Assembly (NCBI RefSeq): GCF_003226535.1
Contig: NZ_QKOB01000021.1
Span: 1 to 32,487 of the forward strand
Direction: 5' to 3'
Length of the DNA: 32,487 nucleotides
Origin: Meiothermus sp. Pnk-1
GTDB taxonomy: Bacteria; Deinococcota; Deinococci; Deinococcales; Thermaceae
Position 1 is the first letter of the stretch; each line of letters opens with the position of its first letter. Positions 4,094 to 24,718 of the stretch are shown here, piece after piece. The notes below the pieces were generated by a model. The model was not told where the DNA came from and searched no databases. It was given only the letters and a program-made list of their open reading frames with translations. The position numbers and the translations under genes were made by a program.

Positions 4094-4128
4094 ACGTCCC
4101 ACGTCAAACGTCGAGCGTCGTACGGCCG
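4094..4128. repeat. Short tandem heptamer array at the edge of the decayed island
   Basis: Units in register are ACGTCCC, ACGTCAA, ACGTCGA, GCGTCGT, followed by ACGGCCG. The same ACGTCNN heptamer pattern occurs at 24540-24570. It lies between the broken regulator and the stop of the dehydrogenase gene at 4152, at the boundary between Thermus-like and native-looking sequence. Confidence 0.7.
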
Positions 4129-4151
4129 GCACAGATCAAGTCATCAGTGCG

Positions 4152-5036
4152 CTAGCGAATTTCGACCCCGCTCCACCTTTCCAAGAGCTGCGCCACAGCG
4201 GTGTGGTCCACCTCGGAAGCACCCACCTCGCGCTTGGCGATGTTGAAAAACTCCTTAACCTGCCGCAACAAAGGAGCGGGCGTACCGGCTGCGTCCACGA
4301 CCTCCATGCAGATACCCAGATCCTTGGCCAGCAGCCCCAGGGCAAAAGTGTTGGGAAAACTGCGCGTCACGACCCGGCTAGGAAAGAGGTTCTCGCTGAC
4401 GTTGCTGCGCCCGGAAGAGGCGTTGATGACCTCCAAGGCCACGCCCGCGCCCACCCCCTGTTTGGCCAGCGCCACCAACCCCTCGCTCAAGGCCCACAGG
4501 TTCACCGCCAGAAGAGCGTTGTTCACCGCTTTGACTGCGTGCCCCGCTCCTAACGGCCCCACATGCACGATCTTGGCGCAGTAAGCTTCCAAAAAGGGCC
4601 GGGCCCGCTCGAAGTCGGCAGCTTCCCCTCCCACCATCGCCGTAGCACGGGCGTTTTGCGCCCCTATCACCCCCCCCGAGAGCGGCGCATCGAGGTAACG
4701 AACCCCACGGTCGGCCAGCCTCTGCGCGGTCTGTTTGGCCAGCTCGGGCTCGCCAGAGGTGTTGTCTACCCACAAGGTGCCGGGGCGTAGATGCGGCAGG
4801 AGGGCTCGAGCGAGGCCGTCTACGTCTTGAGAGACCGGCACACAGGTAAAGATCACCTCCGCCTCGGCGATACTCTCGAGAGAAACCGCCCTCGAGCCGA
4901 ACTCCTTGGCATGGGCTTCGGCTTTGGCGAAGGTGCGGTTCCACACCAGGGTCTCGAAGCGCTTGGCCAAATGCCCAGCAATTGGCCAGCCCATCGCCCC
5001 TAACCCGATAAACCCGACTTTTCGACGATCCGACAT
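4152..5036 (-). CDS. NAD(P)-dependent beta-hydroxyacid dehydrogenase (3-hydroxyisobutyrate dehydrogenase family)
   Basis: 294 residues, a normal length for the family. The N-terminal Rossmann motif GFIGLGAMGWPIAGHL (residues 8-23) is followed by VFTCVPVSQDV-like sequence (here VIFTCVPVSQDVDGL), the substrate-binding segment DAPLSGGVIGAQNARATAMVGG, and the catalytic-lysine region GHAVKAVNNALLAVN. The family oxidises or reduces beta-hydroxyacids such as 3-hydroxyisobutyrate, tartronate semialdehyde or succinic semialdehyde; which one cannot be told. I chose the ATG at 5036, since the reading frame extends upstream with unrelated residues. A perfect TATGAT lies exactly 6 nt before this ATG with no Shine-Dalgarno, suggesting a leaderless mRNA. 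Divergent from the alpha-glucosidase. Confidence 0.9.
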   Translation of the reverse strand: MSDRRKVGFIGLGAMGWPIAGHLAKRFETLVWNRTFAKAEAHAKEFGSRAVSLESIAEAEVIFTCVPVSQDVDGLARALLPHLRPGTLWVDNTSGEPELAKQTAQRLADRGVRYLDAPLSGGVIGAQNARATAMVGGEAADFERARPFLEAYCAKIVHVGPLGAGHAVKAVNNALLAVNLWALSEGLVALAKQGVGAGVALEVINASSGRSNVSENLFPSRVVTRSFPNTFALGLLAKDLGICMEVVDAAGTPAPLLRQVKEFFNIAKREVGASEVDHTAVAQLLERWSGVEIR

Positions 5037-23780: not shown

Positions 23781-24305
23781 TTAGGCCGCCTCCTGTTTGG
23801 CGACGAAAGCCTCCAAGATGCCGACGAATTCCTGCGCCTTTCCACCCAGCACGCCCACCAAATTGCTCATGGGGGCCGAGAGCACGCCCACCAGTTCGGC
23901 GCGCAATTCGGCCTGGCTGGGGAGGTCGGCCAGGGCTTCGACTTGCTTGGCGTCCAGCGCCTGCCCCGAGAGCAGCCCCGACTTAAACCTGGGGATGCCT
24001 TTGTCGTTCGTCTTGGCGTACTCCTTGAGGGCCTTGGCCGCGGCGGCGGGTTCCTTGAAGATCACCACCGCCGAAGGCCCAGTGAGCCCCTCGAGCTCAG
24101 GCAAGCCCAAGTTGCTCAAGGCTTTGCGGATCAGGGTGTTTTTGGCGACGATCAGCTCACCGCCTTTTTCCCGCAAAGCCCTGCGGAGCTTACCGGTAGG
24201 CCCCGCCTCGAGCCCTTGATAGTCCACCAAGAAGAACGAGCCTTCGGCTTCCCTGAGGGTCGCCGTGAGCGCCTCGAGATGTTCGATGTTGCGCTGACTA
24301 GGCAC
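23781..24305 (-). CDS. rplJ: 50S ribosomal protein L10
   Basis: 174 residues. N-terminal rRNA-binding domain with [20 protein letters not shown] and [20 protein letters not shown], and a C-terminal helix ([19 protein letters not shown]) that carries L7/L12 dimers. AGGAGGATACGT lies before the ATG. Expression is probably controlled by the L10 leader just upstream. Confidence 0.97.
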
Positions 24306-24479: not shown

Positions 24480-24539
24480 GGGGGGTGGAAGCGCCAGCGA
24501 GGGGCCGGTGCCCTGGTGACTTGATTCGTGCTGACTCAG

Positions 24540-24570
24540 ACGTCGTACGTCAAACGTCATACGTCATACG
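24540..24570. repeat. Left heptamer array (ACGTCNN units)
   Basis: Units in register: ACGTCGT, ACGTCAA, ACGTCAT, ACGTCAT and a part unit ACG. The pattern and one unit are shared with the array at 4094-4128. Confidence 0.8.
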
Positions 24571-24572
24571 AA

Positions 24573-24668
24573 GGGGATCGTCCCCTAGGTGTACGGCGGC
24601 ACGCCGTCCCGATAGGGGATCGCCCCCTAGGTGTACGGCGGCACGCCGTCCCAAAGGGGATCGTCCCC
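24573..24668. repeat. 2.3 copies of a ~41-bp hairpin-forming direct repeat
   Basis: Two 38-bp units (24573-24610 and 24615-24652) differ at one base; a third copy keeps only the first 13 bases (24656-24668). Each full unit has two small palindromes: GGGGA-TCG-TCCCC (the centre is imperfect in unit 2) and ACGGCG-GCA-CGCCGT, both with 3-nt loops. It resembles a REP/BIME-type intergenic element. It lies between the rplJ promoter and the end of the fmdA-like gene. Confidence 0.85.
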
Positions 24669-24669
24669 C

Positions 24670-24718
24670 GCGTTTAGCGTTTAGCGTTTTGCGTTTAGCG
24701 TCTCGCGTCTTGCGTTTG
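24670..24718. repeat. Right heptamer array (GCGTNTN units)
   Basis: Exactly seven 7-bp units in register: GCGTTTA, GCGTTTA, GCGTTTT, GCGTTTA, GCGTCTC, GCGTCTT, GCGTTTG. Read on the minus strand they are NNACGC-type units (AAACGCT), roughly the inverse of the left array (NNACGTC). The array overlaps the 3' end of the amidase gene and supplies its stop codon. Confidence 0.85.

Follow-up and report, generated by a model that had tools for sequence, protein, structure and literature searches.

The family of composite elements described here comes close to the MITEs derived from IS630/Tc1-mariner elements: terminal repeats are shared with an element encoding a DDE_3 transposase, sister copies are inserted at CTAG/CTNAG, and the family has no ORF and many short copies. 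However, the core strings together hairpin cassettes of several types, enclosed by phased heptamer arrays, and many composites, the copy in the window included, have lost one or both ends. The BOX element of Streptococcus pneumoniae is similar in having an end module, a variable number of core modules, another end module and a stem fold; in contrast to BOX, with which it can be compared by architecture alone, the composite has several core types, heptamer arrays and IS630-type ends. BIME/REP sequences, among them REPINs (PMC3116915), resemble the composite as mosaic intergenic palindromes of a few discrete types but differ from it by the absence of heptamer arms and of DDE-type duplications. 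23S rRNA intervening sequences that carry an S23/IVP ORF, as in Coxiella, have been described as selfish elements of unclear origin and function whose inverted termini are cleaved by RNase III (PMC4990558). The termini of the composite are predicted to pair into a long RNA stem similar to the RNase III-cleaved one, whereas the window composite lies outside rRNA and has no IVP ORF. Intergenic arrays of 7-mers are also found as heptameric repeats in cyanobacteria, Beggiatoaceae and Xanthomonas (PMC4679880, PMC4692102). These repeats have been described in Beggiatoaceae and other bacteria without an evident mechanism (PMC4679880); those of Xanthomonas are degenerate and partly arranged in inverted pairs, and those of Xanthomonas and Nostoc have been described as generally not associated with mobile elements (PMC4692102). 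A term search of PMC4679880 and PMC4692102 found no mention of S23 or of helix bundle in either text, and no paper stating a link between IVP and heptamers was found in searches of an open-access collection.

The window, which is the whole stretch of 32,487 nucleotides that was analysed, contains one composite and one smaller relic of the same family:

24509 to 24539, plus strand: left terminal sequence TGCCCTGGTGACTTGATTCGTGCTGACTCAG, the family's terminal inverted repeat, of the IS630 type; it is preceded by CCGG, not CTAG
24540 to 24572, plus strand: left heptamer array, (ACGTCNN)4 + ACGAA, by direct reading, TRF and pattern counts
24573 to 24614, plus strand: cassette 1, 42 bp, with hairpins at 24573-24585 and 24593-24607, hairpin type GGCGGCACGCC
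24615 to 24655, plus strand: cassette 2, 41 bp, with hairpins at 24615-24627 and 24635-24649, of the same hairpin type GGCGGCACGCC as cassette 1
24656 to 24668, plus strand: part cassette 3, 13 bp, first hairpin alone (GGGGATCGTCCCC)
24670 to 24718, plus strand: right heptamer array, (GCGTNTN)7, overlapping the 3' end of the acetamidase/formamidase ORF and without a right terminal repeat
4094 to 4153, minus strand: second, solo family relic, consisting of a terminal sequence at 4130-4153 adjoining CTAG and ACGTCNN heptamers at 4094-4124, with no cassette

Direct reading and TRF recovered the heptamer arrays and the double-hairpin units between them, with the coordinates, unit counts and triloops that the first-pass annotation had described, and thus confirmed the feature, which reaches farther left than first drawn, to 24509, through the terminal sequence. 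The units of the left array (24540-24567) are ACGTCGT, ACGTCAA, ACGTCAT and ACGTCAT, followed by the part unit ACGAA at 24568-24572. A full unit of the core is made of two triloop hairpins: GGGGA-TCG-TCCCC, which reads GGGGATCGCCCCC in unit two, and ACGGCG-GCA-CGCCGT. The feature is flanked by rplJ, which starts at 24305 on the minus strand, and by the acetamidase/formamidase ORF (PF03069), whose last codons (about SQTQDARR) and stop come from the right array. No PF05635 ORF lies between the arrays of this copy, the 180-bp element being too small, and an Rfam scan of the window gave no match at the gathering threshold. Compared with complete copies, the window copy lacks the right terminal repeat, the CTAG on the left and a target-site duplication, and it appears to be a truncated or rearranged copy that retains the left end alone.

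The arrays are neither restricted to this place nor equally dense in shuffled sequence. The ACGTC pattern with one mismatch matches the window 6 times against 0.04 expected, three of these matches being the second relic at 4094-4124, and the GCGTNTN pattern matches 5 times against 0.01 expected; none of 100 shuffles reached either count. The genome, 3.51 Mb in 36 contigs, belongs to the same genus as a 3-contig genome that was judged to be A. silvanus DSM 9946 because hits fell at identical coordinates on the two plasmid records. It contains 107 matches to GCGTNTN x3.5 and 54 to ACGTCNN x3, with none in the reversed control of the former or in the control of the latter, and the window element used as a BLAST query has 65 matches in its own genome. 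A catalogue built from the genome stretches around the copies comprises 136 cassettes in about 60 composites. Judged from its sequence, the window feature is one of these roughly 60 elements dispersed in this Allomeiothermus genome. The count is probably too low, because the draft assembly often breaks within a composite, as at the ends of contigs C1, C2, C6, C8, C9, C19 and C25. Matches resembling the element, to a cassette or to a heptamer, are present in 21 of the 50 Thermaceae genomes and in 4 of 5 genera, with none in the 27 genomes of the genus that is presumably Thermus. A strict cassette pattern had no match in a collection of genome contigs.

The order of modules is constant: a recognisable terminal sequence in about 40% of composites, the rest starting at the heptamers; an ACGTCNN array; 1-6 cassettes; optional extra modules; and a GCGTNTN array. 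The GCGTNTN array is often followed by an inverted ACGTCNN array, and many composites have inverted ACGTCNN at both ends. About seven hairpin types supply the cassettes, for example GGCGGYACGCC, GGGCGTAGCCC, GGAGCTTGCTCC, GAGCTTTGCTC, GGGCACCGCCC, AGCCATAGGCT and CGGCNNNGCCG. Nearly all cassette stems are perfect, three of four variable stem pairs are changed on both sides, and hairpin complementarity is maintained across eight 5' arms. Judged by the layout of the cassettes, which repeat a small number of types and lack unique spacers, an integron- or CRISPR-like organisation was considered and set aside. A module P with hairpin CCCTCCCCTGCTAGGGGAGGG recurs next to composites (C2 at 21 kb, 141 kb and 349 kb, and others). 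In relatives, copies of the 42-bp cassette also seem to lie within or next to protein-coding frames; its length is divisible by three, as is that of in-frame palindromic elements.

The first-pass annotation had offered, besides a mobile element, a protein-binding array. A regulatory array serving rplJ or the acetamidase gene would suit the regular 7-bp phasing and the position upstream of rplJ. However, the roughly 60 copies adjoin unrelated genes and differ freely in how many cassettes they have and of which type, one sister copy is missing from the orthologous site, and such a local role is very improbable. Growth of the arrays as minisatellites by slippage alone, with no element behind them, is hardly credible: tandem 7-mers can grow in this way and some genomes have very long arrays, but the units are degenerate at fixed positions, the arrays come in inverted pairs, the modules keep one order, terminal repeats and duplications are present, and the array type tracks the lineage of IVP.

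The canonical outer end of the family is an inverted end of IS630 type, TGNNCTGGTAACTTGATTT, sited at CTAG/CTNAG. The terminal sequence TGNNCTGGTAACTTGATTTGTGCTGACTCAG borders the ACGTCNN array on its outer side and forms 39 ends in the genome, which are preceded by CTAG in 11 cases and by TAAG in 4. Both ends are present in 5 copies among the 39 ends found. Two of them are flanked by CTAG/CTAG (C1:545192-545476, 285 bp; C9:1251-1566, 316 bp), one without a cassette by CTAAG/CTAAG (C12:26038-26154, 117 bp) and one by CTGAG/CTTAG (419 bp); the fifth copy, 83 bp long, shows no clear duplication. A. silvanus lacks the C9 copy at the orthologous site, with the break falling at the terminal sequences. 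At the flank of another copy (C3, 201 kb), the A. silvanus composite has one cassette against two here, and the cassettes differ. The A. silvanus flank comparison covered 6 copies, with both flanks located for 4; three of these four pairs were non-adjacent and are not counted as evidence.

The same type of end recurs in 11 of the 50 Thermaceae genomes, and one Meiothermus genome (G015) has 158 matches (TAGTGGTCTGGTAACTAAATTT) with none in the reversed control. The Meiothermus elements bounded by family ends are MITEs of 100-360 bp, the G015 copies that were read being ~350 bp long, together with a 1.2-kb element that encodes a DDE_3 (IS630-type) transposase in split frames (E 9.2e-23). Because the same ends bound both the MITEs and the DDE_3-encoding element, the outer ends of the composite are IS630-type as well. 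A CTAG target fits the IS630-type family. No transposase gene with family ends was seen in the stretches of the own genome examined around copies, and a search for the terminal sequence in plasmids returned nothing relevant. The transposition of the window copy itself is read from its sister copies, since this copy has neither the right terminal repeat nor the left CTAG. About 60 dispersed copies of one plan, sister copies with terminal inverted repeats and CTAG/CTNAG duplications, the empty orthologous site and the differing cassettes at a site shared with A. silvanus all speak for the mobile or REP-like element that had been proposed from the window alone. A REP/BIME- or BOX-like element in the strict sense, in which a RAYT-type (Y1) transposase copies the palindromic cassettes and the boundary sequences were added later, is improbable for the element as a whole but may hold for the cassettes themselves. 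Short palindromic cassettes in mixed arrays are indeed dispersed in Meiothermus, Calidithermus and Allomeiothermus, and the end-(core)n-end plan resembles that of BOX as generally known (boxA-boxB(n)-boxC); however, duplications and empty site alike are of the DDE/IS630 type.

The description of the outer arrays as roughly inverted holds: their predicted pairing in RNA makes use of G.U, and many copies have inverted ACGTCNN at both ends. The predicted RNA fold of the window element is one long stem of -99.9 kcal/mol against -78.1 kcal/mol (z -4.35), in which the left ACGTC units pair with the right GCGT units. All 16 folded composites, including the window copy and selected for possessing both arrays, give an array-array stem with z from -2.8 to -7.2 and 10-34 left-right pairs each. 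Folding thus predicts that the left and right arrays would pair as RNA into a long stem.

Unforeseen in the first-pass annotation, these arrays are members of a class that stands on both sides of PF05635 genes, which encode the 23S rRNA intervening-sequence protein (IVP), across phyla. The sole PF05635 match in the own genome (C1:116507-116821; 23S_rRNA_IVP, E 9e-33) lies between lpd and aceF and between two inverted GCGT-type arrays, the region of gene plus arrays being C1:116448-116881. Among solved structures, its nearest relative is that of XCC0516 from Xanthomonas campestris (PDB 2gsc). PF05635 genes are present in 14 of the 50 Thermaceae genomes, and many PF05635 flanks are inverted arrays of degenerate 7-mers, some of 8-mers, in which the left matches the right and the type is specific to the locus (TCTATGG, CCGATAG, CTTGTGG, GGTGAAAA, AGGAGCC and others). 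One flank was scored by local alignment against the reverse complement of the other and compared with control intervals. In 22 of 38 PF05635 loci (30 from Thermaceae, 8 from plasmids), the flank score lies above the 99th percentile obtained with 1056 control intervals. Among genomes of other phyla with GCGTNTN arrays, PF05635 is present in 30 of 43, compared with 0 of 14 named controls, which are not a random-genome baseline; 24 of the 30 loci exceed the 99th percentile of 926 controls and 18 exceed every control. Both sets together give 46 of 68 loci above the 99th percentile of their controls. An Azospirillum ORF that apparently lies inside 23S rRNA has the same kind of inverted heptamer arrays. 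PF05635 genes are bracketed by inverted degenerate heptamer arrays in many phyla; how the arrays arise and what the IVP does biochemically we infer. A few cyanobacterial PF05635 genes have direct instead of inverted arrays, and in cyanobacterial plasmids IVP genes are inserted inside CRISPR-Cas operons (cas6-cas4, cas10-cmr3).

Conversely, arrays usually do not have an IVP gene adjacent to them. A one-sequence phmmer search for IVP in the ORFs of 118 heptamer loci gave no hit, because the arrays at these loci are mostly solo. Within the Thermaceae, occurrence restricted to PF05635-bearing genomes holds for the two dispersed array types that were counted exactly, ACGTCNN and GTCNATN. ACGTCNN x3 arrays occur in 5 of 50 genomes, all with PF05635. 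GTCNATN x3 arrays occur in 10 of 50, that is, in 10 of 14 genomes with IVP versus 0 of 36 without it; inside one genus (g3) they are found in 7 of 9 IVP genomes versus 0 of 9 others, with a hypergeometric p of about 0.001 that ignores within-genus kinship. A looser GCGT pattern (3 mismatches) has single matches in three genomes without PF05635, near the level of the reversed control.

The site between lpd and aceF allows array type and IVP lineage to be compared in four genomes. IVPs are 90% identical within two pairs, the own genome with G002 (presumably Calidithermus chliarophilus) and A. silvanus with G003, and 52-56% identical between them; the pairs cut across the grouping by genus with strong support in the tree. 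The arrays are of the ACGC type in the own genome and G002 and of the ACGTC type in A. silvanus and G003. The host flanks, lpd and aceF, are 83-95% identical among the four genomes without the split into IVP pairs, whereas the element region splits into 86-90% versus 63-67% identity. Because the element region splits by IVP pair and the host flanks do not, array, IVP gene and array are exchanged together and the heptamer follows the IVP. At this site, the array type thus tracks the IVP lineage against the grouping by genus. The window composite combines both heptamer types present there. One intergenic region of G002 contains several heptamer types next to each other, as though arrays had built up inside or alongside existing ones.

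These observations also bear on a different origin of the composite, as a derivative of an IVP element. The PF05635 protein, with or without a host enzyme, would recognise its own heptamer and move arrays plus cargo, and the IS630-type ends would be incidental, derived from arrays that landed in MITEs. The match between the two heptamer types of the composite and those flanking IVP at lpd-aceF, the confinement of exactly counted dispersed arrays to IVP-bearing Thermaceae, the many composites and solo array pairs without an IS630-type end, and the inverted arrays around PF05635 genes across phyla all point in this direction. However, the IS630-type ends define the cleanest empty site and the duplications. 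PF05635 is not known to have nuclease or transposase activity, which also counts against such a derivation. We consider it unlikely, with an appreciable chance of being right.

Among known kinds, the window feature belongs with MITEs and mosaic repeats, as a new composite form. Probably, it is a right-truncated copy of a non-autonomous mosaic, MITE-like element that has spread through the genome. In the family, outer ends of IS630/Tc1-mariner type are inserted at CTAG/CTNAG and heptamer arrays lie inside these ends; the core is made up of 1-6 double-hairpin cassettes that combine a small set of hairpin types in various ways. An IS630-type transposase would move complete copies in trans, and recombination between copies may shuffle the cassettes. 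IVP elements, in the order array, IVP gene and inverted array, form a separate exchangeable unit in which the heptamer follows the IVP lineage. Folding predicts that, in a transcribed copy, the left array pairs with the right one through A-U, C-G and G.U, the cassettes folding inside, to give one long stem, which may make insertion between or inside transcription units tolerable. Because many composites begin at heptamers without a terminal repeat, the mosaic-element reading needs either a second route of spread or heavy decay.

The composite is an example of a mosaic mobile repeat that shapes the genome of a thermophile, here a hot-spring bacterium. The rule that joins heptamer and IVP is the more surprising part, as a pattern documented here with a mechanism that we infer. 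Tentatively, and with a likelihood a little short of even, PF05635 genes with their inverted heptamer arrays constitute a small mobile unit found across phyla in which the IVP specifies the heptamer; rRNA intervening sequences would be no more than its members inserted in rRNA, and the scattered heptameric repeats of many bacteria would be copies of it that are solo or have decayed. The window composite would then use these arrays as a non-autonomous passenger. The rule is testable: PF05635 genes lie between inverted heptamer arrays in many phyla, and the array type follows the protein lineage at one comparable site. The function of PF05635 has been unclear since the family was first noticed in rRNA intervening sequences, and the rule, if true, would give it a likely DNA or RNA target. 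It would also bring together the rRNA intervening sequences and the heptameric repeats for which earlier papers gave no mechanism, and the kinship of the composite's arrays with those bracketing IVP genes may explain the puzzling 7-base repeats of many bacteria.
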